A stretch of 64,000 bases of DNA from Winslowiella toletana. Its GTDB lineage: Bacteria > Pseudomonadota > Gammaproteobacteria > Enterobacterales > Enterobacteriaceae. The DNA is taken from contig NZ_JAGGMQ010000001.1 in the NCBI RefSeq assembly GCF_017875465.1, positions 4,960,001-5,024,000 of the forward strand, given 5' to 3'. Positions 1 to 26,664 of this stretch are shown here, piece after piece. How positions within the stretch are numbered: the first letter of the stretch is position 1; each line of letters begins with the position of its first letter. Under the pieces are notes generated by a model. That model made no database searches. It was not told the origin of the DNA and saw only the letters and a list, made by a program, of their open reading frames with translations. The position numbers were made by a program, and so were the translations under genes.

Positions 1-1133
1 AGTACCGCCGCCAGATCGGATTTACCGGCCAGATACTGCGCATTCAGGATACGTACGCGATTTTGTTGCAGAGGGAGGATGGTTTCCGCCTGACGACGCC
101 ACACCGCATTTGCCGCCTGATATTGCGCCAGCAGCGTATCCAGCTGCGCCTGATGCGCGCGTAGCTGTAAAGTCAGCGCATCGTTCGCCTGCCAGCTGCG
201 GGCGATATCGGCGGCATGATCTTTATCCTGACGGCGCGAAGTAAACAGTGGCAGATCTACCGTTACCATTACGCCAGCCATATCGTCATAGTCGTCGGCG
301 CGTCTGGCGTAATACAGTTCGACGCCAATATCCGGAATCGCCGCAACTGCTGACTGTGCTGACTTCGCCTGCGCAGTTTCGCTTTCGCGCCGCGCCTGGA
401 TAATTTCCGGATGGGTTTCGATGCTTTGTTGCAGGCTCTGCTCGCTGGCGGGCAGTTGCTGATAGCGTGGCCACTCACCGCTGACGCCACCGACCTGTTG
501 CCCGGTCAGCTGGCGCAGCTTGTAACGCGCCAGCGCCACATCACGCGCCGCATTATCCTGCTGATTGTGCATCGCTGACAGTATCAGCTGGCTATCCAGC
601 AGCATGCTGGCGCTACTCCTGCCCGCAGCCAGCGCGGCGTGCTGCGCTAAAATCTGTCGGTTACTCTCCGTCACCAGTTTATTTACCGCCGCATAACCCT
701 GCAGCGAAAGCGCTAACGCCAGCCATGCCTGCGCCGTTTCCCGTTGCAGGCTGGCGATCATCACCGCCTGACCGGCAGCGGTTTGCTGCGCCTCGGCGTG
801 AATAACGGCGGCTTTTTTCTCGCGTTTAGTACTGCTGACATAATCCTGCATAACACCAACGCGCTGCATGGTCATGCCTTCGCGCGTCAGGCGATGCGCA
901 TTGCTGCCGCCCAGCGGCAGATTTTCGATGCCGAATTTGAGTTTAGGATCGGGCAGTTGCATGGCGGACTCGGCCATGTTGTTCAGGGCATTGACCTGAT
1001 GACGGTTAGCGGACAGTTCGGCTGAAAAGTGTTGCGCCAGCCTGAGGGATTGTTCCAGTGACAGATCCGCAGACCAGACCACTGGCGCAACCACGGCAAA
1101 AAGTATCCCGAACAGGATTTTTGCGTGCTGCAT
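1..1133 (-). CDS. TolC-family outer membrane efflux protein (3' end cut by window edge)
   Basis: The reading frame is open from an ATG at 1133 to the window edge, about 377 residues. It begins with a signal peptide (hydrophobic residues 5-18, likely cleavage after WSA), followed by long alanine/glutamine-rich helices typical of the periplasmic barrel of outer membrane factors (DLSLEQSLRLAQHFSAEL near the start, ESNRQILAQHAAL in the middle). Such proteins form the outer membrane channel of tripartite pumps. The closest type in my reading is the CusC-like or CzcC-like factor of metal RND pumps, supported by the small Cys/His-rich exported gene immediately upstream. The adaptor and pump genes would lie beyond the left edge. 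The substrate is not visible. Confidence 0.85.
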   Translation of the reverse strand, partial: MQHAKILFGILFAVVAPVVWSADLSLEQSLRLAQHFSAELSANRHQVNALNNMAESAMQLPDPKLKFGIENLPLGGSNAHRLTREGMTMQRVGVMQDYVSSTKREKKAAVIHAEAQQTAAGQAVMIASLQRETAQAWLALALSLQGYAAVNKLVTESNRQILAQHAALAAGRSSASMLLDSQLILSAMHNQQDNAARDVALARYKLRQLTGQQVGGVSGEWPRYQQLPASEQSLQQSIETHPEIIQARRESETAQAKSAQSAVAAIPDIGVELYYARRADDYDDMAGVMVTVDLPLFTSRRQDKDHAADIARSWQANDALTLQLRAHQAQLDTLLAQYQAANAVWRRQAETILPLQQNRVRILNAQYLAGKSDLAAV

Positions 1134-1191
1134 AGGTTATCTCCAGAAAAGAGTAAGTTGATTAAAACTGATTAACTCACTGATTTTCTGG

Positions 1192-1584
1192 TTATTCTCT
1201 GAAACGACAGAAGCGGATCTCGGCGGGGGGACCGGTGACCGGCGGACGCAGCCAGTCGAACTGAAATTTCTTCGCCGCGACATCACAAACCGCCAGGCGT
1301 AGCCCCGGGTCGGCAGCGACTGCCACCATATGCAGTGAAGGATGATCATCCGGCGACAGGTCGGGCGCGCAGTGTTTATCGCACAGCGGCGTTTGCGTCA
1401 GCATATGCTGGTTGTGCTGCTGCTCGCTGGCAACCGCCATACAGCTAAAAGCGATGGCGCAGTGATGGGATGCCAGTGCTAACTGGGCGCTAAATAACAG
1501 CCAGCACCAAACGCAAAGCAGGATTAACCGTCGCTTCTTTCTGCGCATCAGTGATATGACGATATTTATTAAGCGCCTGAACAT
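1192..1584 (-). CDS. small Cys/His-rich exported protein, possible metal-resistance accessory
   Basis: This encodes 130 residues. An N-terminal basic stretch and hydrophobic segment (LILLCVWCWLLFSAQLALAS) look like a signal peptide. The mature part carries several histidines and cysteines (HHCAIAFSC, CDKHC, a C-terminal FCRF) that could bind a metal. The start at 1584 is preceded by AGGTGA at good spacing; an internal Met at 1548 would give a more classical signal peptide but has no clear ribosome binding site. It lies 58 bases upstream of the TolC-family gene on the same strand, so it is probably first in that operon. It resembles the small copper-associated DUF2946/CopL-like proteins only in general character; I do not recognise the family with certainty. 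Confidence 0.6.
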   Translation of the reverse strand: MFRRLINIVISLMRRKKRRLILLCVWCWLLFSAQLALASHHCAIAFSCMAVASEQQHNQHMLTQTPLCDKHCAPDLSPDDHPSLHMVAVAADPGLRLAVCDVAAKKFQFDWLRPPVTGPPAEIRFCRFRE

Positions 1585-1692
1585 GCTTGTTCACCTGCAT
1601 AAAACACCGGTGAATTATAGACACGGTTATTTTTTTAAATAAAGGCAAATGTCTGGTTAACAAAGGAAATTAGCGATTACTTTTAACATTAA

Positions 1693-1715
1693 CGCCTGAT
1701 AATTAATATCAGGCG
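1693..1715 (-). terminator. hairpin after the aminotransferase operon
   Basis: Perfect 8-bp arms CGCCTGAT and ATCAGGCG enclose a 7-base loop. It sits 45 bases past the stop of the leftward aminotransferase gene and before the metal-efflux operon. The following T content is modest (TTAATGTTAAAAG), so it is only a probable terminator. Confidence 0.5.
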
Positions 1716-1759
1716 CCAGAATGTCGCAGCTGTTTTACTTTATTTCTAATATTAAGTAA

Positions 1760-3070
1760 TTAACTTAACTCATCCAGCACCCTGTCCAGCACGCGCAGGA
1801 AAATATCGGCGTGTTCGCGGTTAAACGGTAACGGTGGACGGATCTTAAGAATATTGGCGGCCGGACCGGCACTACTGACCAGTACACCATTGTCACGCAT
1901 CAGATTCACCACTGCGCTGGCCATTTCGCCATCCGGCGTTTGCTGGCCGTCATCCTGCACCAGTTCGAGCGCAAGAAACAGTCCGGCGCCTCTGACGTCA
2001 CCCACCGCGCGGTACTTCTGTTGCAGACTGCGCATGCCGGCCAGCATATATTCGCCGGTGCGGACGGCGTTCTCCATCAGCTGCTCTTCTTCGATAATAT
2101 CCAGCACCGCAGTAGCCGCGGCAATCGAGATATGGTTAGCGCCAAAGGTGTTGAAATAGCGTGCGCTCTCGGCAAATTTACGCTGTATCTCCTCTTTAAA
2201 CAGCGTGGCGGCAATCGGCAGACCATTGCCCATTGGCTTACCAATCACCACCATATCCGGCACAATGCCGTGACGCTGGAAGCCCCACATATGCGAGCCG
2301 GTCCGGCCAAAGCCGGGCTGTACTTCGTCGGCGATATAGAGCGCGCCGTGGCCGTGCACCACCTCAAGAGTTTGCTGCAGAAACCCTGCCGGTTCGGTAA
2401 AAATGCCATCGCTGGAAAAGATGCCATCCGCAATAAACGCTGCTGGCTTAATGCCTCGACGGCGCAGAAAAGCAAAGGCGCTGGCGACATCGGTCGCCAG
2501 CTGCTTAGCCACGTCCCCGCCTGCTGCCCGGTAACTGTCGGGCGCTGGCACGGTGACCACATGCTGACCCAGCGCCACATTTTCGCCCAGCGAGGGAGAA
2601 ATCTCCGCCGCCGCCGCTGTGACGCCATGATAGGCGTTGGCAGTGATCACAATACCGCTGCCGCCGGTGTGACTGCGGGCGATACGCAGCGCCAGATCCA
2701 CCGCTTCACTGCCGGTACAGGTATACATAATACGGTTGATCGCCGCCGGAAAGGTTGCCAGCAGACGTTCGGAATAGTTAAGCACCTGCTCGCCCAGATA
2801 GCGGGTATGGGTATTCAGCTGCGCCGCCTGCGCAGCGATCGCCGCCACCACTTGCGGGTGACAGTGTCCGACCGAAGGCACATTGTTATAGGCGTCAAGC
2901 AAGGCATTGCCCGCATCGTCATACAGCCATACCCCTTCCGCCCGCACCGGATGCAGCGGCTGCTGGTAGAACAGCCGATAGGATGGCCCCAGCAACGCCT
3001 GGCGGCGTGCGACCAGCGCGCGGGTTTTCGCTGATGGTTCGCCAGCAGCGATATTAATCTTTTGCTTCAT
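1760..3070 (-). CDS. class III aminotransferase-fold enzyme, ammoniophospholyase-like (copy 1)
   Basis: 436 residues; start set at 3070 because GAGGAAA lies just upstream and the preceding kinase stop is 1 base away. It is a fold-type I PLP enzyme: CTGSE near 118-122, IADEV with the PLP-ring aspartate about 248, and the PLP lysine about 278 in IGKPMGNG. The start (GPSYRLFY, YNNVPSVGHCHP) and end (DVRGAGLFLALEL, KIRPPLPF) resemble the human AGXT2L1/AGXT2L2 enzymes, which eliminate ammonia and phosphate from phosphoethanolamine or 5-phosphohydroxylysine. The adjoining APH-fold kinase fits that chemistry. An oddity is NTFGANHIS where relatives, including the second copy at 25.4 kb, have [10 protein letters not shown] true transaminase role cannot be excluded. 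Confidence 0.85.
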   Translation of the reverse strand: MKQKINIAAGEPSAKTRALVARRQALLGPSYRLFYQQPLHPVRAEGVWLYDDAGNALLDAYNNVPSVGHCHPQVVAAIAAQAAQLNTHTRYLGEQVLNYSERLLATFPAAINRIMYTCTGSEAVDLALRIARSHTGGSGIVITANAYHGVTAAAAEISPSLGENVALGQHVVTVPAPDSYRAAGGDVAKQLATDVASAFAFLRRRGIKPAAFIADGIFSSDGIFTEPAGFLQQTLEVVHGHGALYIADEVQPGFGRTGSHMWGFQRHGIVPDMVVIGKPMGNGLPIAATLFKEEIQRKFAESARYFNTFGANHISIAAATAVLDIIEEEQLMENAVRTGEYMLAGMRSLQQKYRAVGDVRGAGLFLALELVQDDGQQTPDGEMASAVVNLMRDNGVLVSSAGPAANILKIRPPLPFNREHADIFLRVLDRVLDELS

Positions 3071-3071
3071 C

Positions 3072-4142
3072 TCAGTTTCCTCGGCAGGCGGCGGTAAAAC
3101 GTGCAAGGACCTCTTGCGGGGCAATCGCTTCCAGCTGCGCCAGCTGGCTCTCTACCAGCCGGTTATGCCGGGTAAGACGTGCATGCTGCTCCGGGAACAG
3201 CGTGGCGCGCCACTGCGTAATAGTTAAGCGCATCACCATGCGCATCACAATCGCCGGATACAGCAGGTTAATCTCGGTGGCGCTCAGGCTTCTCAGGGTA
3301 GCGTAACCCGCGAGGAAGTCGCAGATATCACTCAGCGCATCCTCACCCGGACCGATCTGATAAGAGGCGGCGATAGCGACATCAAACAGCACCGGCGCAT
3401 GCACCATATCGCCGAAATCGATAATACCGCTGATCTGTTCTGGCTGATCCGCGTCGGTGAGAATGTTTTCAATATTGAAATCATTATGAATCACCTGCAT
3501 CGGCAGCTCTGCCATCACCGGCAGCACCTGCTTTTCAAAACGCTTAAGGGCGTGTTCCAGAGTGTGACGGCAAGCGGTATCGCCAAACGAAGGCAGTAAC
3601 TCACGCATCGCGCTGGCATGTGACATATCCCAGGTAATACGGTGATGCGCCGCCGGATGGTGAAAACTTTGCAGCGCATTTTGCAGACGCGCCAGCATTA
3701 CGCCGACGTTATAGCGTTGTGCTGCCGATGGCAGCGCACGGCGCTGTGCAATGCCGGGCAGAAACGTGACTAAACGTACGCTGCGCTGCTGGCCCGATTT
3801 ATCGGTAATCAGATGATTGGCTTCGCCCTCCAGCGTGGCAATCACCCGCTGGACAGGAATGCCGCCATCCACCTGCTCCACATGCTGTAAAGCGGCGCTG
3901 TGCATGGCCGAAACCGCCGGATCTTCCGCCGGACTGAGGATCTTCAGCAGGTACTCGCGCCCCTGTTGCAGGGTTAAACGATAATTGGAATCCTTCTCTC
4001 CCCATAACCATTCCGCACGGCCATCAAAACCATAAACTCTGCGGGCAATCGCCTCGGCTTCAGCGGCCTGCACAATCACCGCACTGGTTGTCAGCTCTGC
4101 TCCCATCGCCGCGCCCCTCTCGGGGGCTGTCGGTGCTGTCAT
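3072..4142 (-). CDS. APH-fold small-molecule kinase, hydroxylysine kinase-like (copy 1)
   Basis: 356 residues from an ATG at 4142 with AGGAG upstream. Aminoglycoside phosphotransferase/choline kinase fold: a nucleotide-binding segment with ATP lysine in YLLKIL (about 67), the catalytic loop HNDFNIENIL at 219-228 with base Asp221, and the metal-binding IDFGD at 241-245. Proteins of this fold phosphorylate hydroxyl groups of small molecules. Eukaryotic hydroxylysine kinase belongs here, and bacterial proteins fusing this domain to a class III aminotransferase are known. Its stop is 1 base from the start of the ammoniophospholyase-like gene, so the two are translationally coupled. The likely role is to phosphorylate an amino alcohol that the next enzyme cleaves. 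Not expected to be an antibiotic resistance gene. Confidence 0.85.
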   Translation of the reverse strand: MTAPTAPERGAAMGAELTTSAVIVQAAEAEAIARRVYGFDGRAEWLWGEKDSNYRLTLQQGREYLLKILSPAEDPAVSAMHSAALQHVEQVDGGIPVQRVIATLEGEANHLITDKSGQQRSVRLVTFLPGIAQRRALPSAAQRYNVGVMLARLQNALQSFHHPAAHHRITWDMSHASAMRELLPSFGDTACRHTLEHALKRFEKQVLPVMAELPMQVIHNDFNIENILTDADQPEQISGIIDFGDMVHAPVLFDVAIAASYQIGPGEDALSDICDFLAGYATLRSLSATEINLLYPAIVMRMVMRLTITQWRATLFPEQHARLTRHNRLVESQLAQLEAIAPQEVLARFTAACRGN

Positions 4143-4171
4143 TGGGTTATCTCCTGTCATTTTTAGCACGA

Positions 4172-4209
4172 GTCTGGTCGTCCCTTCGCGAAAAGGGATC
4201 GAACCAGAC
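4172..4209 (-). repeat. two-part hairpin inside the operon, between amidase and kinase
   Basis: Outer arms GTCTGGT (4172-4178) and ACCAGAC (4203-4209) and inner arms TCCCTT (4181-4186) and AAGGGA (4193-4198) make a long hairpin in the 74-base gap between amidase and kinase. No T tract follows on the transcribed strand, so it is not a classic terminator. It may stabilise or process the mRNA or set the ratio of upstream to downstream products. Confidence 0.5.
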
Positions 4210-4216
4210 CGGGTTA

Positions 4217-5644
4217 TTATTGGTGCAGTGGCGTACTGATAAAAGCTTCAGGCCAGGCTGCCTGATACGCAGCGGCCAGCTTCAGTACAATATCGTCACG
4301 ATAACGGGCGCCGACAAATTGCAGGCCAACCGGCAAACCGGACTGGTCGAAACCGCAGGAGACGGAGACCGCGGGTTGTCCGGTCATATTAAAAGGATAG
4401 GTAAACGGCGACCAGTCAGACCAGTCTTTACCTTCCTCGCCGCCCGGGAAATCCACTCCCGCTTCGAAGGCGGTCAGCGGCATGGTCGGCAGCATCAGCG
4501 CGTCATATTTTTCATGGAACTGCGCCATAGTCACTTTCAGATCGGCGCGCACCTGTTCGGCGGCAATATAGTCACGAGTACCCAGCGCCTTCGCCTTTTC
4601 ACAAATGGTCAGCAACCCCGGATCCATCAGGCTTTTCTGCTGCGCCGTCAGCTTCAGCTGCTCCAGGGTATAAGCCTCGGCGGCATACCATAGCGCCAGC
4701 ATTGCATCCTGCGGATCGCTAAAGCCCGGATCGACCTCTTCAACAATCGCCCCCATCTCACTTAACCGGCGCGCGGCGCGTTCCACTGCCGCAGCCACAT
4801 CCGGCTGTACGCTGGCAAAACCGAGATTGCGGCTGTAGCCGATGCGCATGCCTTTTACCGAGGCGTTTTTAATTGCCGCTACCCAGTCGGGTACCTGATC
4901 AGGACAGGAGCCATAACGGGCTGACGCCGTCGGCCCGGTGGTAGCATTAAGAAACAGCGCCGCATCTTCAACGGTACGGGTTAACGGCCCGCGGTGCGCC
5001 AGCTCCATCAGTGGCGTAACGGTATCCGCCGGGATCCAGCCGTAGGTCGGTTTAATGCCAAAGATGCCGCAGAACGAAGCCGGAATGCGGATCGAACCTG
5101 CGCCGTCGGAGCCTTCGTGCAGCACCCCCATATTCAGCGCCGCCGCCACCGCCGCGCCGCCGGAAGAGCCGCCGGAGGCGCGATCGGTACGCCATGGGTT
5201 GAGGGTATTACCAAACGCCGGACCATGAGTAACACCCTTCCAGCCAAATTCCGGTGAGGCGGTGGTGCCAAGGATCGTGACCCCGGCAGCGCGCAGGCGC
5301 TGCATAATCAGGAACTCTTTCTCCGACGGCTGCGTCGAACCCAGCGCCGAACCACGACGCCACGGAATGCCCTTCACCGGGGTTAACTCTTTAATGGTGG
5401 TCGGCGCGCCATCCAGCGGGCTTAACTGCTGGTCTTTCTGCCAGCGCGCTTCGGACGCTTTTGCCTCTGCCAGCGCCAGCTCCGGCACCACATATGCAAA
5501 AGCATTAACCTGCGGGTTAAAACGCTCTATACGATCGAGCGCGGCCTGTGCGGCCTCTACTGGCGAGGCTTTGCCACTGGCAAACAGTGCCGACAGTTCG
5601 GCGGCGGTCATTTCACCCAGATCGGTTTTTTCGGTGAGACTCAT
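4217..5644 (-). CDS. amidase (amidase signature family)
   Basis: 475 residues. The amidase signature region is clear: Lys85 in TTIKELTPVKG, the glycine/serine stretch ASGGSSGGAAVAAAL around 156-170, and the nucleophile serine about 184 in DGAGSIRIPAS, together forming the Ser-cisSer-Lys triad. These enzymes hydrolyse carboxamide bonds; members include fatty-acid amide hydrolase, 6-aminohexanoate cyclic dimer hydrolase and GatA. No GatB or GatC partner is nearby, so this is a catabolic amidase. It is cytoplasmic (no signal peptide), 15 bases after the omega-aminotransferase in the same leftward operon, and would act on a substrate brought in by the ABC importer. The precise substrate is unknown. 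Confidence 0.9.
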   Translation of the reverse strand: MSLTEKTDLGEMTAAELSALFASGKASPVEAAQAALDRIERFNPQVNAFAYVVPELALAEAKASEARWQKDQQLSPLDGAPTTIKELTPVKGIPWRRGSALGSTQPSEKEFLIMQRLRAAGVTILGTTASPEFGWKGVTHGPAFGNTLNPWRTDRASGGSSGGAAVAAALNMGVLHEGSDGAGSIRIPASFCGIFGIKPTYGWIPADTVTPLMELAHRGPLTRTVEDAALFLNATTGPTASARYGSCPDQVPDWVAAIKNASVKGMRIGYSRNLGFASVQPDVAAAVERAARRLSEMGAIVEEVDPGFSDPQDAMLALWYAAEAYTLEQLKLTAQQKSLMDPGLLTICEKAKALGTRDYIAAEQVRADLKVTMAQFHEKYDALMLPTMPLTAFEAGVDFPGGEEGKDWSDWSPFTYPFNMTGQPAVSVSCGFDQSGLPVGLQFVGARYRDDIVLKLAAAYQAAWPEAFISTPLHQ

Positions 5645-5659
5645 AACGGGCTGCTCCGG

Positions 5660-7006
5660 TTATTGTGATTCAGCAAGACGATTAAGCGCACGGCTAACGC
5701 CAGCGAACATTTCACTAATCTGCTGCTCAGTGATAATCAATGGCGGGCAAAAACAGATCGCCTCACCGATATTGCGCACCATCACCCCTTCCGCCTGACA
5801 GGCGGTTTTCAGCGCGGCGGCGGCGATACCGGCTCCGGCGGACCATGGCTTTATCTCCAGCGCGCCGATCAAACCGACACCGCGCGACGAATGCGCCAGT
5901 GGATGTTCAGCAAGGGCGCTGAGTCCGGCGAGGAAATGCGATTCCATGCGCGCCGCATGGCCCACCAGATCGCGTTCGAGAATAATCTTGATATTTTCCA
6001 CAGCGACGGCGGTCGCCACCGGATGACCGGAGGCGGTAAAGCCATGGCCGAAGGTGCCCTGACGGACGGATTCATCGGCAATGGGTTGATAGACGGCGTC
6101 ATTCAGCAGCACCGCCGACAGCGGCATATAGGATGAGGAGATCTGTTTGGAGAGCACCATCATATCCGGTTCAATGCCGTAGGTTTCGCAGGCAAACAGC
6201 TTACCGGTGCGGCCAAAACCGGTAATCACCTCATCGGCGACAAACAGGATGTCATATTTGCGCAGAATGGCCTGCACCCCCTGCCAGTAACCCGCAGGTG
6301 GCAGCAGCACCCCGCCCGCACCCATTACCGGTTCGCCCCAGAAAGCGGCAATGGTGTCCGCGCCCTCTTTCAGGATCAGGCTCTCAAGGTCGTTCAGCAT
6401 CCGTGCGGTAAAGCTGGCTTCGCTCTCTCCAGGCTCTGCAAAATGCACATATGACGGGCAGGACGTGTGGATCATGCGATCCAGCGGCAAATCGAAGCTC
6501 TGATGATTACGTGCGATGCCGGTAATCGACGCGGCGGCGATGGTAACGCCGTGATAGCCCTTAATACGTCCGATGATTTTCTTTTTAGCGGGTTTGCCCA
6601 GCGCATTTGAGCGATACCAGACCATTTTGCAGGCGAGGTCATTGGCTTCCGAACCGGAAGAGGTGAAATGCACTTTTGACATCGGTACCGGCGCCAGCCT
6701 GATCAGCAGCTCAGCCAGATCGACCGACGGACCGTGAGTTTTATCGTTAAATGTATGATAATACGGCAGCTTCGCCATCTGTTTTGCCGCCGCCGCTACC
6801 AGTCGTGGCTCACCAAAGCCCAGCGCCACCGACCACAACCCCGCCATCGCTTCGATATAGCGTTTACCCTGATTGTCTGTGACATAGATACCATCACCGC
6901 TTTCGATAACCAGACCGCCGGTCTTCTCATACTGGCGTAAATCCGTATTCTGATGCATCTGAAAAGCGATATCGCGGCCTTCAATCGAATCTGAGGGAAA
7001 TGTCAT
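5660..7006 (-). CDS. class III omega-aminotransferase
   Basis: 448 residues. PLP fold-type I, class [13 protein letters not shown] at 117-125, the YHG motif about 151-153, FVADEV with Asp258, and the PLP lysine about 287 in VLSKQIS, followed by FGHGFTASGHP. This subgroup (omega-amino acid:pyruvate and related transaminases) moves the terminal amino group of diamines or omega-amino acids to pyruvate or 2-oxoglutarate. It differs clearly from the ammoniophospholyase-like enzyme in the same operon, which has GKPMGNG around the lysine. It is flanked by the ABC ATPase gene and the amidase. The aldehyde product could be the substrate of the aldehyde dehydrogenase at the head of the operon (inference). 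Confidence 0.88.
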   Translation of the reverse strand: MTFPSDSIEGRDIAFQMHQNTDLRQYEKTGGLVIESGDGIYVTDNQGKRYIEAMAGLWSVALGFGEPRLVAAAAKQMAKLPYYHTFNDKTHGPSVDLAELLIRLAPVPMSKVHFTSSGSEANDLACKMVWYRSNALGKPAKKKIIGRIKGYHGVTIAAASITGIARNHQSFDLPLDRMIHTSCPSYVHFAEPGESEASFTARMLNDLESLILKEGADTIAAFWGEPVMGAGGVLLPPAGYWQGVQAILRKYDILFVADEVITGFGRTGKLFACETYGIEPDMMVLSKQISSSYMPLSAVLLNDAVYQPIADESVRQGTFGHGFTASGHPVATAVAVENIKIILERDLVGHAARMESHFLAGLSALAEHPLAHSSRGVGLIGALEIKPWSAGAGIAAAALKTACQAEGVMVRNIGEAICFCPPLIITEQQISEMFAGVSRALNRLAESQ

Positions 7007-7038
7007 TAATCACTACTCCGGGTTGAGAATTAAATCGA

Positions 7039-8709
7039 TTAGCTGGCCATCAGCGCTTCTTTGGCGCGTCCGGGGATCGCCGCGATCAGTTTTTGCGTAT
7101 AGGGATGGGCCGGCGCATTAAAGATAGTGCTACCGCTTCCCAGTTCGACCACCTGCCCCTGCTGCATCACCATCACCCGGTCACAGATTTGCGCCGCTAC
7201 CCGCAGGTCGTGGGTAATAAACACCAGTGAAAGATTCAGTTCGGCTTTGAGTCGCGCCAGCAACTCCAGTACCTGCGCCTGAATGGAAACATCCAGCGCG
7301 GAAACCGCTTCGTCGGCAATAATGATTTCCGGGTCCAGCGCCAGCGCACGGGCGATACCGATACGCTGCCGCTGACCGCCGGAAAACTCATGCGGAAAAC
7401 GACTGGCGCCACGGGCATCGAGTCCCACCATCTCCATCAGTTCGGCGGCGCGTTTCATCGCCACTGCATGGTTTTCACCGTAGGCTATCGGCCCGGAGGC
7501 GATAATCCGGCCAACTTTTTCGCGCGGATTAAGTGACGAAAAGGGATCCTGGAATATCATCTGAATACGACGGCGTACCGCACGCAGCGCATCACCTTTC
7601 AGATGCGCCATATCGTTATCGTTCAGCAATACGCGGCCACTGTCCGGATCCTGCAGCCGCACCAGGCAGCGCCCTACCGAAGATTTGCCGGAGCCGCTTT
7701 CGCCGACAATCCCCAGCGTTTCACCGCGACCCAGCGTAAAGCTGACATCCCGTACCGCATGGACGGACTTCGCTTTGGCAAACATCCCATCTTTGATGTG
7801 ATAGGTTTTATTCAGCTGTTCCACCTGCAGCAGGGGTTCACGCTCCACATTCTGCGTGACGCCGCTGGCCGGACGCGGGATCGCGGCAATCAGCTTTCTG
7901 GTATAAGGATGGCCGGGCGACAGCAGCACTTCATCGGCGGTGCCCTGCTCGACAATACGTCCCAGCTGCATAACGGTGACAAAATCAGCAATTTCCGCCA
8001 CCACGCCAAAGTCATGGGTGATAAACATTACCGCCATATTGCGCTTCAGTTGCAGGTCACGGATCAGGTGCAGAATCTGCGCCTGAGTGGTGACGTCCAG
8101 CGCGGTGGTCGGCTCATCGGCGACCAGTACCTGCGGTTCCAGCGCCAGCGCCATCGCAATCACCACACGCTGACGCTGACCGCCGGATAACTGGAAAGGA
8201 TAAGAGATCGCTGCGCGCTGCGGGTCCGGCAGCCCGACCTCGGTTAACAACTCGAGGGCTTTCTGCTTGCGCTGTTTCGCCGTCAGCAAACCGTGGGCGG
8301 CAAATACCTCTTCGATTTGCGCCGAGATTTTCATCAACGGATTCAGCGCCGACATCGGTTCCTGGAAAATCATCGCCACCCGCTGTCCGCGGACCGCATA
8401 CATCGCCTCGGCAGGTTGTGTCAGCAGATCAACTTCCTCCAGCAGAATACGTCCCTGCGCCACCCGCACCGTATCCGGCAGCAGACCCATCAGCGCATTG
8501 GCCGACATCGACTTGCCGGAGCCACTTTCGCCGACCACACATAGCATCTCGCCTGGATGGATTTTAAAACTGACGCGATCCACGGCGTACAGGCGGTCAG
8601 CGCCCTCGGGTAAAGCGATGCTCAGGCGGTCGATATGTACGATCGGCGTGCCGCGATCGATCAGCGCCCCCGGATGAATCACTGGCTCGCTAGCCTGTTG
8701 CTTGCTCAT
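7039..8709 (-). CDS. peptide-type ABC transporter, fused double ATPase
   Basis: About 556 residues with two complete ATPase halves, as in GsiA or a DppD-DppF fusion. Each half has a Walker A (GESGSGKS), a Q loop (IFQEPMSALNP, IFQDPFSSLNP), a signature ([16 protein letters not shown]) and a Walker B/D loop (ADEPTTALD, ADEAVSALD). The oligopeptide-type C-terminal segment HPYTRKLIAAIPRP/HPYTQKLIAAIPG appears after both. A GTG at 8712 overlaps the previous stop, but the ATG at 8709 seems the better start. It energises the importer formed with the two permeases and the binding protein upstream. Confidence 0.93.
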   Translation of the reverse strand: MSKQQASEPVIHPGALIDRGTPIVHIDRLSIALPEGADRLYAVDRVSFKIHPGEMLCVVGESGSGKSMSANALMGLLPDTVRVAQGRILLEEVDLLTQPAEAMYAVRGQRVAMIFQEPMSALNPLMKISAQIEEVFAAHGLLTAKQRKQKALELLTEVGLPDPQRAAISYPFQLSGGQRQRVVIAMALALEPQVLVADEPTTALDVTTQAQILHLIRDLQLKRNMAVMFITHDFGVVAEIADFVTVMQLGRIVEQGTADEVLLSPGHPYTRKLIAAIPRPASGVTQNVEREPLLQVEQLNKTYHIKDGMFAKAKSVHAVRDVSFTLGRGETLGIVGESGSGKSSVGRCLVRLQDPDSGRVLLNDNDMAHLKGDALRAVRRRIQMIFQDPFSSLNPREKVGRIIASGPIAYGENHAVAMKRAAELMEMVGLDARGASRFPHEFSGGQRQRIGIARALALDPEIIIADEAVSALDVSIQAQVLELLARLKAELNLSLVFITHDLRVAAQICDRVMVMQQGQVVELGSGSTIFNAPAHPYTQKLIAAIPGRAKEALMAS

Positions 8710-8711
8710 CA

Positions 8712-9554
8712 CTATTTCCGTCCTTTGCGTGTAAGTCGTGGATTCAGCGCGTCGTTCAGCCCTTCACCGACCAGATTCAGCGCCAGTACCGTCAGCAGAA
8801 TGGCAATGCCCGGAAAGACGCTGATCCACCAGGCCTGGCGGATAACCGTGCGACCCGCGCCGATGATATAACCCCACGACATAATATTGCGGTCACCCAG
8901 ACCGAGGAACGACAGCGCGCTTTCAATCAGAATCGCCGCCGCCACCATCATTGATGCCAGCACAATAATCGGTGAAAGCGTATTCGGCAGGATCTGCCGC
9001 CAGATAATGGTGCGACTGGTCTGCCCGGAGAGGATTGCCGCCTCGATAAACTCACGAGAGCGCAACGACATCACTTCGCCGCGCAACAGACGCGCCACCG
9101 GCGGCCACGAGACAATGGCAATCGCAATTACAATCGACGTAATCGATGGCTGGAAGATGGCCACCAGTACTATTGCCAGCGCAAAGCTCGGCACGCTCTG
9201 GAAGAACTCGGTAAAGCGCATCAGCACATCATCAACCCAGCCGCCGAAGTAACCTGCCATCGCGCCAACCGGAATACCGATCAGCAGCGATACCACGGTA
9301 GAGATCAGGCCGATTAACAGCGAAACACGCGCGCCATAAGCCAGACCGGCCGCCAGATCGCGCCCCAGCGGATCGGTGCCGAGGAAGTACTGTGCGACGG
9401 TAAAAGGCGGCAGAAAGGGTCGCTGCACCATCGCCCACGGCGACTTTTCATACAGAAACGGCGCGGCGATGGACAAGATAACCACCAGCAGCAGAATCAG
9501 CAAGCCAATTACCGCGCCACGGTTTTGCGAGAAACGTTGCCAGAAATCTTTCAT
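8712..9554 (-). CDS. peptide-type ABC transporter permease (DppC/GsiD-like)
   Basis: 280 residues. About six membrane segments; a long N-terminal helix is followed by the family motif LGTDPLGRDLAAGLAYGARVS and the cytoplasmic loop REFIEAAILSGQTSRTIIWR, the EAA-type segment that docks on the ATPase. The C-terminus has LNLVGEGLNDALNPRL, characteristic of DppC/OppC subunits. Its start overlaps the stop of the DppB-like gene by 4 bases. Inner membrane translocation subunit. Confidence 0.93.
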   Translation of the reverse strand: MKDFWQRFSQNRGAVIGLLILLLVVILSIAAPFLYEKSPWAMVQRPFLPPFTVAQYFLGTDPLGRDLAAGLAYGARVSLLIGLISTVVSLLIGIPVGAMAGYFGGWVDDVLMRFTEFFQSVPSFALAIVLVAIFQPSITSIVIAIAIVSWPPVARLLRGEVMSLRSREFIEAAILSGQTSRTIIWRQILPNTLSPIIVLASMMVAAAILIESALSFLGLGDRNIMSWGYIIGAGRTVIRQAWWISVFPGIAILLTVLALNLVGEGLNDALNPRLTRKGRK

Positions 9555-10522
9555 GAAGCCACCCGAATTCGAGGATCAACCAGCCGGTAAAGGATGTCGG
9601 TGATCAGATTGAAAAACAGCACAATCGCCGCAGAGACCACAAACACGCCAAGCAGCAGGTTATAGTCACGCTGGGTCAGCGCATCAAACATCAGGCGGCC
9701 AATCCCCGGCCAGGCAAATACCGTCTCAATCAGCACCCCACCGCCGACCAGCTGCCCGGCCTGCAATCCGGCGAGGGTGACCACCGGCAGCATTGCATTG
9801 CGCAATACGTGGCGACGCTGGATCTGCCCCGGACGCAACCCCTTAGCTTTGGCGGTTTTAACAAAGTCCATCTGATTGACCTCTAACATCGAAGCGCGCG
9901 TCATACGGGCATACACCGCCATAAAGAACAGGCCAAGGGTGCCCGCCGGTAAAATCAGATGCTTCAGTACATCAAGCGCATAAGCGATACCGGTAAAGTC
10001 ACTGCCAACGGTACTGTAGCCAAAACCTGGCAACCAGTTCAGCTGGACCGAAAACAGCAGCACCGCCATCAGCGCCAGCCAGAACAGCGGCGTGGCATAG
10101 AAGATCAGTGCCACAAACGAGATCAGTGAATCTGACCAGCGTCCCTGACGCGCCGACGCCACATTGCCGCCGAGGATCCCCAGCCCGAGTGAAATCACAA
10201 AGGCGGTAAACGACAGCAATAAGGTGGCCGGCAGGCGATCAATAATCAGCTGCAATACCGGCAGGCTCTGACGATACGAAAAACCAAGGTCCAGATGAAT
10301 CACCGACGACAGGTAAATAAACAGCTGCATATACAGCGGCTGATTAAGACCAAACCGTTCACGGAGCTGATCGACGAATATCTGATCGCTATCCCCGGCT
10401 TCACCCGCCATCACCATTGCCGGATCGCCCGGCGCCATATGAATAAGAAAGAAATTTAATATGGTAATACAAAGAAGTATCATCACTGCTTTCAGGAGCC
10501 GAACAGCAATAAATCGGATCAT
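9551..10522 (-). CDS. peptide-type ABC transporter permease (DppB/GsiC-like)
   Basis: 323 residues. It has the typical DppB N-terminus (RFIAVRLLKAVMILLCITILNFFLIHMAPGDP split over one membrane helix and the GDPA motif), five further membrane segments, and the EAA-like loop DFVKTAKAKGLRPGQIQRRHVLRNA. The C-terminal GVFVVSAAIVLFFNL with DPRIR is also standard. It pairs with the adjacent DppC-like permease and lies 44 bases after the binding-protein gene. Confidence 0.93.
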   Translation of the reverse strand: MIRFIAVRLLKAVMILLCITILNFFLIHMAPGDPAMVMAGEAGDSDQIFVDQLRERFGLNQPLYMQLFIYLSSVIHLDLGFSYRQSLPVLQLIIDRLPATLLLSFTAFVISLGLGILGGNVASARQGRWSDSLISFVALIFYATPLFWLALMAVLLFSVQLNWLPGFGYSTVGSDFTGIAYALDVLKHLILPAGTLGLFFMAVYARMTRASMLEVNQMDFVKTAKAKGLRPGQIQRRHVLRNAMLPVVTLAGLQAGQLVGGGVLIETVFAWPGIGRLMFDALTQRDYNLLLGVFVVSAAIVLFFNLITDILYRLVDPRIRVAS

Positions 10523-10566
10523 GAGAGTCTCCGGCGTTAATGATTATTTAACAACAGTCAGCCGCG

Positions 10567-12114
10567 TTATTTCTTAATCCAGGCATCACGCAGTGAATCG
10601 GAGAGACCATTAGCGGTGGTGATCAGATCCTGATATTTACAGTTGTAAATCGTCGGGAATCCCAGATCCAGTAACCAGGCAACCGGCACATCGTCACGTA
10701 ATTTCGCCTGCACCTGGCTATAAAGCTTCTGCCGTTCTGCAGAAGGAAATGCCATCGCCGCCTGCTTAAATAACTGATCAACTTCCGGGTTAGAATAACC
10801 TTCAACATTATTCCATGGATTACCTTTGGCGATTTGCGAGGAGATATAGTTGCGCTCTACGCCAATTGCCGGATCGCCATTCTGGAACATATAAGTAAAG
10901 GCAATATCATAATCCCATGAAGAAACACGCTGATTCCAGCCCGCCACATCGGCGGATTCAATGGTAACCGGAATACCGACTTCCGCCAGATTCTGTTTTA
11001 CCGCTTCAGCCCAGCGCTGCCAGGTTTCGCCATACGGTAATGGCAGCAGACGTAATGTTTTACCGTTATAGCCAATCTCTTTTAACAGTGCTTTGGCTTT
11101 TTCCGGGTTATGTTCATATTTCGCGCCGACATCAGCATAAAACGGCAGTTTTGAAGAGAACGGACCGGTAGCGACTTTGCCATAACCGTTCCACAACGCA
11201 TCTCTGGCAAAATCCCGATCCAGTGCATACATAATAGCCTGACGGAATTTCACGTTATTCATCGGCGCCACCCGATTATTGAGCCACAGAAAAGAGAGTG
11301 GCGAAGTATATTCCCAGCCCTTTTCAGTGGTGCAGGTATTAGCCAGTGCCGACAGGCGTGGAATATCGTAATTTTCCACTGATCCACCAGGTAAAATATC
11401 TACTGTGCCGGTTTCATAGGAAACGGCACGCGAAGCGCCATCCGGGATAATATGATATAACACCGCATCAAGATAAGGGCGTCCTTTCAGATAATAGTCA
11501 GGGTTTTTCACCAGCTTAATAAAGTTGCCACGCTGCCATTCGGCAAATTTAAACGGACCGGTGCCGATTGGTTTTTCATTGGCCGGATTGGTCGTATAGT
11601 CAGTACCTTTATAGATATGTTCCGGCACAATCGGCATCGCACTAAAACTGAAGCTGCGGATAAACGGCTCATACGGATGTTTTAGCTTAATTATGATGGT
11701 GTTAGCATCTGGCGCAGTAACGCTGCTGACATGCTCCATGGTGCTGCGATGGCGCGGTTGGGTTTTCATCAAAAAATCATTCAGAGAAAACAGCACATCT
11801 TCCGAGGTCATTGGCTGACCATCATGGAATAATACATGTTCCTGCAAATGAAAAGTATAAGTTAATCCGTCATCGGAAATCGTCCATGATTTCGCCAGCG
11901 AAGGCTGTGGTTGCAGATTACCGTTATAACGCAGCAGCCCTTCATAAATATTGCCGCCAACCAGCTGGCTGGGGCTATTTGTTGTTATCCCCAGCATTAA
12001 ACCGGTGGGTTCAGGTTGCACAATCAGATTTGCCGTACCTCCTGGCTGAGGGGCGGCATTTACACCACTGGCAAGCATAACCGAAATAAATAACGCCGAG
12101 AAAACACTTTTCAT
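10567..12114 (-). CDS. peptide-type ABC transporter substrate-binding protein (family 5)
   Basis: 515 residues with a Sec signal peptide (MKSVFSALFISVMLASGVNA then APQPGG). The mature protein is an SBP_bac_5 domain: KPIGTGPFKFAEW and LYHIIPDGASRAVSYETG are typical of this family, as is the tail of substrate-lobe motifs. These periplasmic proteins capture peptides, opines, nickel complexes or other small solutes and deliver them to the permeases encoded just downstream. The ligand cannot be read from the sequence; given the operon it may be an amide- or amino-alcohol-containing compound (inference). A 148-base AT-rich gap separates it from the aldehyde dehydrogenase gene, so it may also have its own promoter. 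Confidence 0.92.
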   Translation of the reverse strand: MKSVFSALFISVMLASGVNAAPQPGGTANLIVQPEPTGLMLGITTNSPSQLVGGNIYEGLLRYNGNLQPQPSLAKSWTISDDGLTYTFHLQEHVLFHDGQPMTSEDVLFSLNDFLMKTQPRHRSTMEHVSSVTAPDANTIIIKLKHPYEPFIRSFSFSAMPIVPEHIYKGTDYTTNPANEKPIGTGPFKFAEWQRGNFIKLVKNPDYYLKGRPYLDAVLYHIIPDGASRAVSYETGTVDILPGGSVENYDIPRLSALANTCTTEKGWEYTSPLSFLWLNNRVAPMNNVKFRQAIMYALDRDFARDALWNGYGKVATGPFSSKLPFYADVGAKYEHNPEKAKALLKEIGYNGKTLRLLPLPYGETWQRWAEAVKQNLAEVGIPVTIESADVAGWNQRVSSWDYDIAFTYMFQNGDPAIGVERNYISSQIAKGNPWNNVEGYSNPEVDQLFKQAAMAFPSAERQKLYSQVQAKLRDDVPVAWLLDLGFPTIYNCKYQDLITTANGLSDSLRDAWIKK

Positions 12115-12188
12115 AAAGCGGCCCTTATTAGTTGCTTTGGATTTTTGATGGCTTCCTGAAACAAATAATAGTGTATTGCTGTTTTAAT

Positions 12189-12225
12189 TAAATAAGTAAT
12201 ATTAAAAACCTATATTACTTATTTA
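12189..12225. repeat. AT-rich inverted repeat between aldehyde dehydrogenase and binding-protein genes
   Basis: Perfect 14-bp arms (12189-12202 and 12212-12225, core AAGTAATAT and ATATTACTT) flank a 9-base spacer. It lies in the gap between the aldehyde dehydrogenase stop and the binding-protein start. It could be an operator for an internal promoter or a stem limiting read-through; the sequence does not decide. Confidence 0.5.
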
Positions 12226-12262
12226 TTGAAAGTGATTTCTTATGGCATTTAATTTAATCAGG

Positions 12263-13753
12263 TTACCATACCTGAGTGGCAATAAATTTTGTCACCAGAT
12301 ACTCTTCTAATCCTTCAATTCCCCCTTCGCGGCCAAAGCCGGAATCTTTTATCCCGCCAAACGGTGCATCCGGCAACGCGATCGGCTGACCATTAACCGA
12401 AATCATGCCCGACTCAATAGCATCAGTCACTCTGCGCGTGCGTGAGTATGAGGTGGTATATAAATAAGCCGCCAGACCATAAGGTAATCGATTCGCTTCG
12501 GCTAACGCTTCTTCTTCCTGATTAAAACTATTAATAATAGCAATCGGGCCAAAAGGCTCTTCATTCATAATACGGGCAGATAAAGGGACGTTACTCAGAA
12601 TAGTTGGCGCATAGAAATAACCGTCACGCTCAATTCTTTTACCACCACTGACTAAAGTTGCGCCTTTTTCCAGCGCATCCTCTACCAGCGCGGTGATTGC
12701 CTGCAGATGGCGCTGGTGAATTAATGGCCCCATCGTTGTCGCTTTATTCAGACCATCGCCGATCCTGATGCTTTCTGCTGCCGTTTTAAATGCTGCAGTA
12801 AATTCAGCGAAAATCGTGCTCTCAACCAGGATGCGGGTCGGCGAAACACATACCTGACCTGAATTGCGATATTTAGCGGGCGCCAGTGAGGCGATAACTT
12901 TATTCAGGGGCGCATCAGCAAAAACCAGCACCGGCGCATGTCCGCCTAATTCCATGGTGGAGTATTTCAGATGATTGCCAGCGGCCGAGGCCAGCAGACG
13001 GCCAACGGGAACCGAGCCGGTAAAGGACACTTTGCGAATTTGCGGCTGGGCGATCAGAATTTCAGAAATCATCGCCGGATTACCATACAGCAGCTGTAAT
13101 ACTGACGCTGGTACACCAGCATCAATAAACGCCTGCACCAGCTCAACGCCACAGAATGGGGTATCTTCCGCGCCTTTCAGGATCACTGAACAACCGGCGG
13201 CCAGAGCGGCACCCAGTTTGCGTGATGACTGCGACAGCGGAAAATTCCATGGCGTAAAAGCAGCCACCGGACCAATCGGCTCTTTACGCACCACCAGTTC
13301 GGTCGCGGCGTCAGCGCCTGGCAGCACGCGTCCACAGATGCGACCGGCTTCCTGCCCGTACCACTCAATATTATCGGCGCTGCGCAGCACTTCGGCACGG
13401 GCTTCAGCCAGCGGCTTGCCATTCTCGCGCGTCAGCGTGCGCGCCATGGTTTCACAGCGTGACCTGATCAATGCAGCTGCGTCGATCAAAATACGTGCGC
13501 GCTCCGTTGCTGCGGTTTTGCGCCATAACTGAAACCCCTCATCTGCCACCGCCACTGTGCGCAGTATTGTCGCTTTATCGGCGATGGCATGGTGGCCCAG
13601 CAGCTTTTCACTGGCGGGATCCAGCACCTCGCCCTGCGCTAAGCCAGCAGTCAGCCACTCCCCGGCCACATACAGTGGTGCGTGAAGCAGTGAATCACTA
13701 TTTTCAGCCGTGCGGCAATTCTCAACCTGGTGTGGGTTAGTCATAGTTATCAT
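12263..13753 (-). CDS. NAD(P)-dependent aldehyde dehydrogenase (succinate-semialdehyde dehydrogenase-like)
   Basis: 496 residues. Aldehyde dehydrogenase superfamily: TPWNFPL with the catalytic Asn170, the FTGS nucleotide loop at 244-247, the general base Glu268 in MELGGHAP, and the nucleophile Cys302 in NSGQVCVSPTR. The overall form fits the GabD-like group, which oxidises semialdehydes to acids. A second possible ATG is at 13744; neither has a strong ribosome binding site. It is the first gene of the leftward operon and is divergent from a TetR-family gene. It likely removes the aldehyde made by the aminotransferase or phospholyase enzymes further down (inference). Confidence 0.9.
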   Translation of the reverse strand: MITMTNPHQVENCRTAENSDSLLHAPLYVAGEWLTAGLAQGEVLDPASEKLLGHHAIADKATILRTVAVADEGFQLWRKTAATERARILIDAAALIRSRCETMARTLTRENGKPLAEARAEVLRSADNIEWYGQEAGRICGRVLPGADAATELVVRKEPIGPVAAFTPWNFPLSQSSRKLGAALAAGCSVILKGAEDTPFCGVELVQAFIDAGVPASVLQLLYGNPAMISEILIAQPQIRKVSFTGSVPVGRLLASAAGNHLKYSTMELGGHAPVLVFADAPLNKVIASLAPAKYRNSGQVCVSPTRILVESTIFAEFTAAFKTAAESIRIGDGLNKATTMGPLIHQRHLQAITALVEDALEKGATLVSGGKRIERDGYFYAPTILSNVPLSARIMNEEPFGPIAIINSFNQEEEALAEANRLPYGLAAYLYTTSYSRTRRVTDAIESGMISVNGQPIALPDAPFGGIKDSGFGREGGIEGLEEYLVTKFIATQVW

Positions 13754-13835
13754 TTCAGTTTTACTGTGCAGGATTTCACCATATCATCAATCAACTTGCT
13801 TGCAAGAAAAACTTTTATTGGATATAAACTTTTAT

Positions 13836-14480
13836 ATGAATAAAGAAAACACCCCCCCAAAAGCCCCCGGGCTACGAGAACGTCAGCGCGCCGCACGCCG
13901 CCAGGGTATCCTGTTTGCTGCCGGTGACTTATTTGAAATCAATGGCTTTGAGTCAACCAGTCTTGAAGATGTGGCGGTAAAAGCGGAATTATCGATTCCG
14001 ACGATTTACAGCTTCTTTAAGTCGAAACAGGATCTGTTGCTCGGGCTGATCGAGGAAGATCGCTATCTGTCGGTACCGAAGCTGGAAGCGTTGCTGGAAG
14101 ATCTGGCTGACGATCCGGTGGCGGTATTCGTTGAGTTCGGCAGGATTATGTTTATGCATGGCTACGACTTCCGCCACAAGAAGGTGTGGCGCGAGATTAT
14201 GGCAGCTTCCTTCCGTGTTTCGGAAGATCAGAACCGTTATCGCGAAATGCAGTTGCTTAATGGTCAGTATATCCGTGCCGCGATTGATAAGTTGTGCGAC
14301 AAAGGCAGTCTGCGCGCCGATCTGAATCGTGACAGCGCCCTGCGCCTGTTACAGAATAATTTAAGCCGGGTTTTCCAGCTCTATATCTTAAACGAAGAGA
14401 TGACCGTGGAAGAGATGATGGCGATGCTGCAGCAGGATTTGTCGACGCTGATGAGTGGCATGAGAGAAGCTGCTATCTGA
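13836..14480 (+). CDS. TetR/AcrR-family transcriptional regulator
   Basis: 214 residues from an ATG at 13836; the frame stays open further upstream but that part is not TetR-like and overlaps the divergent promoter region. The DNA-binding domain is at about residues 15-60: RRQGILFAAGDLFEINGFESTSLEDVA then AELSIPTIYSFFKSKQDLL, a standard TetR helix-turn-helix with the YSFF recognition helix. The helical remainder would bind a ligand. It is divergent from the aldehyde dehydrogenase, with an 82-base shared region holding the palindrome CTTGCAAG (13799-13806), so it probably represses the leftward catabolic operon. Its 3' end overlaps the convergent LysR gene by 8 bases. Confidence 0.9.
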   Translation: MNKENTPPKAPGLRERQRAARRQGILFAAGDLFEINGFESTSLEDVAVKAELSIPTIYSFFKSKQDLLLGLIEEDRYLSVPKLEALLEDLADDPVAVFVEFGRIMFMHGYDFRHKKVWREIMAASFRVSEDQNRYREMQLLNGQYIRAAIDKLCDKGSLRADLNRDSALRLLQNNLSRVFQLYILNEEMTVEEMMAMLQQDLSTLMSGMREAAI

Positions 14481-15432
14481 GCCGTTCTCTGCCCCCCTTC
14501 TCCGGCAGTTGCGTCCCGGCCAGACCAGGCATCACCGCTTTCATCAGTTCGAGAAACTTACGCAGGCGCGCCGGATAATAACTGGCATAGGGATACAGCA
14601 GATAAATCGGCAGCGGTGCAGCCTGCCACTGCGGCAATAACTGCTGTAAATGCCCCTGCCGCAAATCATCCTGCACCACCCAGGCGGAGACCATCGCCGC
14701 GCCCATTCCATCCAGCGCCGCTTTACGTACTGCGTACAGACTGTCGGTGCTTAAGCGCGGCGTAATCGCAAAACGGTAAACCTGCTCGCTGCTGATATGA
14801 CTGAGAGTGACTTCATTACGGTAAAAACTGTTTAGCGCCAGCCACGGAAATTGCGCCAGATCCGCGACCTCATGGACTGCGGCATAGCGTGCAAGCAGCG
14901 ATGGCGCCGCCACCACAATGCGCGGGACTTCCGCCAGCAGCACCGCCACTACCGCGGGATCGGTGGCGGCGCCAACATGGATCGCACAATCGACGCCTTC
15001 GGCAATAAAATCCGGCGAATGGTCATTCAGCGTCCACTCGACACTGACTTGTGGATAGCGTTGCAGATAGTCGGCCAGTGGCGCAATCAGCTGATCCTGG
15101 CCAAAAGCATGTGGCGCGCGTACCCGTAATACCCCAACCGGTTCATCGCGCACCGCGCTGACTTCATCTTCCATAATCTGCCAGTGTTCGATCAGCTTAT
15201 ACGCCTGGCGATAGCAGCGTTCACCATCATCGGTCAGTTTCATGGTATGGGTGGTGCGCTGGATCAGTTTGACGCCCAGCAGCTGTTCCAGGCTTTGCAG
15301 GCGGCGGCTGATGGTCGGTTGCGAAGTGCCGATCTGGCTGGCGGCAGCCGAGAGACTCCCGCTCTCAACGATACGCACGAAAGTCTGCAACAGTGATATA
15401 CGGTCAGCAGTGGCTGGAGGATTTTTATTCAT
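14473..15432 (-). CDS. LysR-family transcriptional regulator
   Basis: 319 residues from MNKNPPATAD (ATG at 15432). N-terminal winged helix: LLQTFVRIVESGSLSAAASQIGTSQPTISRRLQSLEQLLG, then LIQRTTHTMKLTDDG; the remainder is a LysR substrate domain of the CrgA-like type. It is divergent from the MFS transporter at 15529, with a 96-base intergenic region, the usual arrangement for a LysR protein that activates its neighbour in response to the neighbour's substrate. An upstream in-frame start at 15462 exists but the shorter form fits the family. Confidence 0.9.
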   Translation of the reverse strand: MNKNPPATADRISLLQTFVRIVESGSLSAAASQIGTSQPTISRRLQSLEQLLGVKLIQRTTHTMKLTDDGERCYRQAYKLIEHWQIMEDEVSAVRDEPVGVLRVRAPHAFGQDQLIAPLADYLQRYPQVSVEWTLNDHSPDFIAEGVDCAIHVGAATDPAVVAVLLAEVPRIVVAAPSLLARYAAVHEVADLAQFPWLALNSFYRNEVTLSHISSEQVYRFAITPRLSTDSLYAVRKAALDGMGAAMVSAWVVQDDLRQGHLQQLLPQWQAAPLPIYLLYPYASYYPARLRKFLELMKAVMPGLAGTQLPEKGGRERLR

Positions 15433-25339: not shown

Positions 25340-25358
25340 TTTAACGGGAGATTTAACG

Positions 25359-26642: not shown

Positions 26643-26664
26643 TCGCAACATACCAGGGCGATCC

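Follow-up and report, generated by a model that had tools for sequence, protein, structure and literature searches.

Gene content and layout of the locus

The DNA analyzed here is a 64,000-nucleotide stretch of the Winslowiella toletana genome (C1:4960001-5024000; hereafter, the window), and its subject is a run of nine leftward genes for a candidate import and degradation pathway. The conserved unit comprises eight of them, reading from a family-5 solute-binding protein (SBP5) to a class III pyridoxal phosphate (PLP) enzyme resembling ammoniophospholyases (PLase); the ninth, encoding an aldehyde dehydrogenase (ALDH), lies outside it. All nine genes and the divergent TetR gene listed in a preliminary description of this DNA are in place, each in the family claimed for it.

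The eight genes are all on the minus strand. Four encode an importer of the dipeptide/opine type: SBP5 (10567..12114; PF00496, 303 bits; best PDB match AgaA, 170 bits), the OppB/DppB-type permease PermB (9551..10522; PF00528 and PF19300), the OppC/DppC-type permease PermC (8712..9554; PF00528 and PF12911), and a double ABC ATPase (7039..8712) with two ABC_tran stretches and oligo_HPY. The SBP_bac_5, OppB/OppC-type permease, and oligo_HPY ATPase components of that importer type are thus all present. They are followed by a class III omega-aminotransferase (wAT; 5660..7006), which exceeds the cut-off of NCBIfam model PRK06105 (714 bits against 517) and matches PDB entries 5ghf and 5ghg at 563 and 557 bits; an amidase-signature amidase (4217..5644; PRK06169, 562.9 bits, cut-off 506); an APH-fold small-molecule kinase (Kin; 3072..4142; PF01636, 95 bits); and PLase (1760..3070). 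The short couplings of 1 to 4 bases that had been described are seen at three junctions: PermB and PermC overlap by 4 bases (9551-9554), PermC and the ATPase gene by 1 base (at 8712), and the Kin stop, ending at 3072, is 1 base from a plausible PLase ATG at 3070. A listed TTG at 3124 is a less likely PLase start than this ATG. The Kin frame is open upstream to a GTG at 4169, and its start was placed from relatives and the upstream sequence. The amidase and wAT genes are 15 bases apart.

The description of a single leftward run holds for the eight tightly spaced genes and less well for ALDH (12263..13753, minus strand), which is set off from SBP5 by 148 bases. This gap holds an AT-rich inverted repeat (12189..12225; 15-base arms with 1 mismatch), nearly copied in the same gap of W. 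arboricola, and ALDH may for this reason be transcribed separately; the repeat is a putative operator of the eight-gene unit. A pattern derived from the site itself (20 specified bases over 29) has 1 match in the window and none in 100 shuffles. The TetR gene (13833..14480, plus strand; PF00440; frame open from 13710) is divergent, and its product is 95% identical in W. arboricola. The G+C content of the operon (55.3%) shows no contrast with that of the window (54.2%), and an Rfam scan of the window gave no matches. In a consensus scan of positions 1000-14600, sigma-70-like sites were at chance level (10, with 10.4 expected), and the 23 terminator-like sites (14.5 expected; standard deviation, 4.0) were mostly intragenic and not informative.

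ALDH is nearest to the group of succinate-semialdehyde and alpha-ketoglutarate-semialdehyde dehydrogenases (SSADH and KGSADH). Its top 11 PDB matches (512 to 351 bits) all carry one of these names except two named just aldehyde dehydrogenase, and the next match falls to 284 bits. The best NCBIfam model is TIGR01780 (SSADH), at 468 bits under a cut-off of 646, and no curated cut-off, of SSADH, KGSADH, or any other model, was exceeded among the 25 of 40 NCBIfam matches listed. Two arginines align with Escherichia coli GabD (3jz4) and with 5x5t, at GabD R164 and in the FRN motif; we take them to be carboxylate-binding. Where GabD has a serine as the third such residue, ALDH and 5x5t both have another residue. 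ALDH resembles dehydrogenases of carboxylated semialdehydes.

Conservation and spread of the eight-gene unit

The order SBP5-PermB-PermC-ATPase-wAT-amidase-Kin-PLase is kept in all 12 genomes or records whose amidase is at least 66% identical to that of the window, namely, 2 Winslowiella-type, 5 rhizobial-type, and 5 Thioclava (genes in the compared loci were labeled by tblastn; amidase matches below 50%, in 9 plasmid records and in two genomes at 47-48%, lie outside this count). The genes do co-occur, as the preliminary description supposed. Chance clustering of the eight is ruled out by the constancy of their order. ALDH and TetR were seen attached to the unit in the two Winslowiella-type genomes only; the sequence read for the other ten showed neither. 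The PermB gene of Rhizobium lusitanum (L121:15622-16594) spans two frames, reflecting either a frameshift or a sequencing error.

Amidases at this level of identity occur in 2 of 60 related genomes (that of the window counted among them), 6 of 15 matched plasmid records, and 4 of the 394 genomes in the family of G100, which we infer from closeness to R. lusitanum to be Rhizobiaceae. The preliminary description had looked to the Erwiniaceae for conservation of the gene set, an expectation that fared poorly: amidase or binding protein was found in only 2 of the 60 relatives (own included). In a sample of 398 genomes of the phylum, the amidase (E <= 1e-130) was recovered from the genome itself and from two others at 47-48% identity, and relatives of PLase (E <= 1e-120) were recovered from 29; the PLase family is therefore fairly common and the operon rare. 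A search of the family around genome G089 (7 genomes) gave no matches and is not informative. The 27 plasmid stretches compared were selected chiefly for their identity to one of several queries and are not a random draw from the 310 records in which a phospholyase matched.

A tree of five concatenated proteins places the two Winslowiella copies with four rhizobial-type copies (L121, L200, L201, and L202), which are themselves united with support of 98.7/97; the split from all others has 100/100. Outside lie Thioclava, L203, and the importer loci of Nitratireductor, Paracoccus, Chelatococcus, a Comamonadaceae, and one further genome. Since the closest copies are rhizobial-type and the genes are present in only 2 of 60 relatives, these data suggest that the operon was gained by horizontal transfer from an alphaproteobacterium, the direction being the more conjectural part. 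The flanking regulators vary: in the four rhizobial-type loci just named, the gene after the unit looks by eye like a GntR regulator, and a LysR gene lies upstream in Thioclava L122 and L147, the 2 of 5 Thioclava records in which sequence upstream of SBP5 was read.

One part of the unit differs in descent between its carriers. The five rhizobial-type copies are 62-71% identical to the window in PLase and 46-63% in Kin. In Thioclava, the amidase, wAT, and importer proteins (L122 and L147) are 60-75% identical to those of the window, PLase is 50-51% identical in 5 of 5 records and falls elsewhere in the tree, and Kin, measured in L122 and L147, is 31% identical. The kinase-phospholyase step in this slot thus seems to have entered from another lineage. 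Because the slot nonetheless holds the same two enzymes, the step seems to be required in the unit.

The kinase-phospholyase pair and its paralogs

Kin and PLase are best read as a putative kinase followed by an ammoniophospholyase. Among solved structures, PLase is nearest to an Arthrobacter phospholyase (5g4i, 367 bits) and human ethanolamine-phosphate phospho-lyase (6tor, 338 bits), with the next match at 187 bits; in the tree, 5g4i sits on a long branch outside the clade of the window, its placement unsure. PLase keeps the GKPMGNG and ADEVQ motifs in alignment with both structures, presumably the PLP-binding lysine and aspartate motifs, and Kin has the motifs HNDFNIEN and DFGD. Both proteins match PRK06148, a model named hypothetical protein: Kin the N-terminal part (256 bits) and PLase the C-terminal part (489 bits), each under the whole-protein cut-off because it covers half. 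The fused PRK06148/PRK06149 kinase-aminotransferase proteins differ in that the operon encodes the two parts as separate genes. Among 80 loci fetched by similarity to PLase alone, 70 have a labeled kinase neighbor, directly upstream on the same strand in 68. The wide gap in PDB scores, the recurring kinase neighbor, and the fused model together leave very little probability for a reading of PLase as an ordinary aminotransferase beside an unrelated kinase, which the breadth of both families and the generic database names of their relatives might suggest.

The window contains a second such pair (24272-27333), in which Kin2 and PL2 are 36% and 53% identical to Kin and PLase. It is followed by a GntR gene 57-59% identical to GntR genes near several Pseudomonas kinase-phospholyase pairs. 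In W. arboricola (L163:3166-5435), PL2 matches over about 152 residues only, between Kin2 and GntR2, as if partly deleted. A third phospholyase paralog (C1:2307921-2309183; L119:7907-9247) has no adjoining kinase and, by eye, a divergent DeoR-type gene. Among congeners, 27 of 35 have a match of at least 49% to PLase, not sorted by paralog. Phospholyase matches also occur on 42 Klebsiella plasmid records, at 50-55% identity among those listed, and on a Pseudomonas plasmid (L144) SDR and GntR genes accompany a kinase-phospholyase pair a few kilobases away from a class 1 integron carrying VIM-2. Elsewhere in the window (29598-34068, minus strand), a hydrolase gene and a second double-ATPase importer of the peptide type were recognized by eye.

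Related pairs are found with other front ends. Rhizobium tropici CIAT 899 (L140) and Rhizobium NXC14 (L128) have in one run genes for an agmatinase, a LAO-type binding protein, wAT, GGT, ALDH, Kin, and PLase, with identities to the window of 50-51% (wAT), 48-54% (ALDH), 53-54% (Kin), and 62-63% (PLase); the NXC14 ALDH and Kin genes are each in two pieces. A. larrymoorei (L132) has a kinase-phospholyase pair and, no more than about 9 kb from it, a wAT 75-76% identical to that of the window; SDR and GntR genes are also present, no amidase is annotated, and the importer is weakly PotD-like (binding protein at 50 bits, cut-off 582). The Aureimonas locus (L142) resembles it, with a wAT at 56% and a gene for a Zn-dependent hydrolase about 3.4 kb beyond wAT. 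Some SBP5-importer loci, those of Paracoccus and Chelatococcus (L123 and L134/L143), combine Kin and PLase with genes for Hist_deacetyl-family proteins and for M20 or Zn hydrolases. In Roseomonas (L057), PLase is followed by an amidase of another kind (PRK07487), and the importer is a related one.

Candidate substrates and proposed pathway

An import-and-degradation operon with phosphorylation and elimination at its core, as first described, is well in keeping with these data. Our tentative proposal, which we put somewhat short of an even chance, is that the operon is catabolic and horizontally mobile and serves to degrade an acylated (amide-linked) compound containing a 1,2-amino alcohol, perhaps an N-acyl 2-hydroxyputrescine or an amide of 4-amino-3-hydroxybutyrate (GABOB). 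The SBP5 importer would take up the amide and the amidase would release the amine; wAT would convert the omega-amine to an aldehyde, the kinase would phosphorylate the hydroxyl adjoining the aminomethyl group, and the PLP phospholyase would then eliminate phosphate and ammonia, giving an aldehyde. Where ALDH is co-located, in the two Winslowiella-type genomes, this SSADH/KGSADH-like enzyme would oxidize the semialdehyde. For the substrates named, the route would end in succinate semialdehyde and succinate. They are the most economical class and would supply the amide bond, the amine for wAT, the vicinal amino alcohol, and the carboxylated semialdehyde together. Families, gene order, conservation, and motifs come from sequence, and we infer from them the reactions, their order, and the substrate. 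In favor are the constant order of the unit, the Kin-PLase of another lineage in the Thioclava slot, the wAT near Kin-PLase in A. larrymoorei, the R. tropici and NXC14 runs, the SBP5 loci with other hydrolases, and the conserved ALDH arginines.

Both routes offered in the preliminary description compare less well with the evidence. In the first, the amidase would free ethanolamine from an N-acylethanolamine, Kin would form phosphoethanolamine, and PLase would yield acetaldehyde; the human phospho-lyase among the two nearest structures, a 54% relative on an Arthrobacter plasmid (AP014720) annotated as ethanolamine-phosphate phospho-lyase, the fatty acid amide hydrolases among the amidase matches, and the lack of any EutB match in the genome speak for it. 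We nevertheless consider it improbable, given a separate locus with its own permease and kinase, the position of the two permease-linked phospholyases tested in another clade, and ALDH and wAT types unsuited to acetaldehyde. The only genome match to the ethanolamine permease model TIGR00908 at E <= 1e-30 is far from the window (C1:3602346; 627.7 bits, cut-off 381.75), divergent from a different APH kinase, with an AraC-type gene by eye beyond (L209:5326-9188), and no ethanolamine permease adjoins the Kin-PLase pair of the window. Rouxiella (L069) has similar neighbors with a phospholyase between kinase and permease; this genome has no such gene between those two, and the third paralog could serve instead. 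The permease-linked route shares with the operon a class III phospholyase and a kinase-like neighbor, which weakly matches Kin2 (23-24%; L066, L069, and L109), but it has a permease over the TIGR00908 cut-off, and neither an amidase nor a wAT was labeled in the sequence covered. Its phospholyases tested for the permease, those of Rouxiella L069 and Salinicola L109, both fall in a Yersiniaceae/Salinicola clade (support 100; 8 members, permease tested in 2) that also holds Rahnella and Serratia M24T3 and is apart from the clade of the window (support 99; 7 members). Comparing phospholyase clades residue by residue showed at least some differences and was not informative about specificity. The second route, in which Kin and PLase would convert free, peptide-bound, or acylated 5-hydroxylysine to 2-aminoadipate semialdehyde and ALDH would oxidize this to 2-aminoadipate, is possible and not favored; we hold it unlikely. 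A peptide-type importer would suit it, and hydroxylysine kinase and 5-phosphohydroxylysine phospho-lyase, reportedly described by Veiga-da-Cunha in 2012, are known relatives. However, wAT would have no obvious role, ALDH groups with SSADH and KGSADH, though it may be promiscuous (no aminoadipate-semialdehyde model appears among the 25 of 40 NCBIfam matches listed), and no further lysine-catabolism gene was recognized in the operon, to which that search was confined. The mammalian hydroxylysine system uses the same two-step chemistry and enzyme families and is not known to include an amidase, wAT, or importer.

A branched conjugate fits nearly as well as the acylated amino alcohol that we favor and, with a somewhat better standing than the hydroxylysine route, is still a minority possibility. 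Here the amidase would separate an amino alcohol from an omega-amino acid of the gamma-aminobutyrate (GABA) or guanidinobutyrate type; wAT and ALDH would consume the acid, and Kin and PLase would consume the alcohol. The resemblance of wAT to omega-transaminases and of ALDH to the SSADH group speaks for this reading, as do the additional agmatinase-family and GGT genes of R. tropici and NXC14. Opposing it are only A. larrymoorei and Aureimonas, where wAT accompanies Kin-PLase with no annotated amide hydrolase between, and the Aureimonas case is weakened by the nearby Zn-dependent hydrolase. Besides this close competitor and the indirect assignment of the substrate, several observations weigh against our proposal. 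ALDH was not seen beside the unit outside Winslowiella-type genomes. Among SBP5-importer relatives, four loci (L126, L135, L136, and L141) carry hydrolases, L124 a binding protein alone, and L125 an importer with an amidohydrolase, none with Kin-PLase in the stretch read. Two of the seven members of the PLase clade of the window (L130 and L133) have no wAT within 10 kb, and the boundaries of that clade are weak when four extra copies are included (support 19/69 and 61/73). Nor is there a strict rule of association, since among the 80 PLase loci a wAT of at least 45% identity occurs, besides W. arboricola, only in L054 and L057.

The preliminary description knew of no named system with this exact gene set, and we found no description of it in the open-access literature searched, which omits most subscription papers. 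PbfA, (R)-1-hydroxy-2-aminoethylphosphonate ammonia-lyase (PMC8154272), is a class III lyase, but the match to its model scores 221 bits (cut-off 525), and no phosphonate-degradation gene was recognized in the run. The chemistry of a kinase plus an ammoniophospholyase is already known; what looks new is this gene set and its spread.

More broadly, it is possible, though doubtful, that these loci represent a hitherto undescribed, horizontally spread bacterial pathway for hydroxylated polyamine-type compounds. Phosphorylation followed by ammoniophospholysis would carry these to succinate semialdehyde, and the front end would be exchangeable, being an amidase in some loci and GGT with agmatinase, or a deacetylase, in others. 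Acylated 2-hydroxyputrescine, plant hydroxyagmatine conjugates, and GABOB amides would be examples of the substrates. What began as a guess from a single genome is now a defined, recurring eight-gene unit in Winslowiella-type enterobacteria, rhizobial-type bacteria, and Thioclava, and it points to an amino-alcohol nutrient. Amino-alcohol kinase and phospho-lyase activities were reportedly obtained from Erwinia in the 1970s, and the separation of the eight-gene unit from the probable ethanolamine route that this genome also has provides gene candidates for them.

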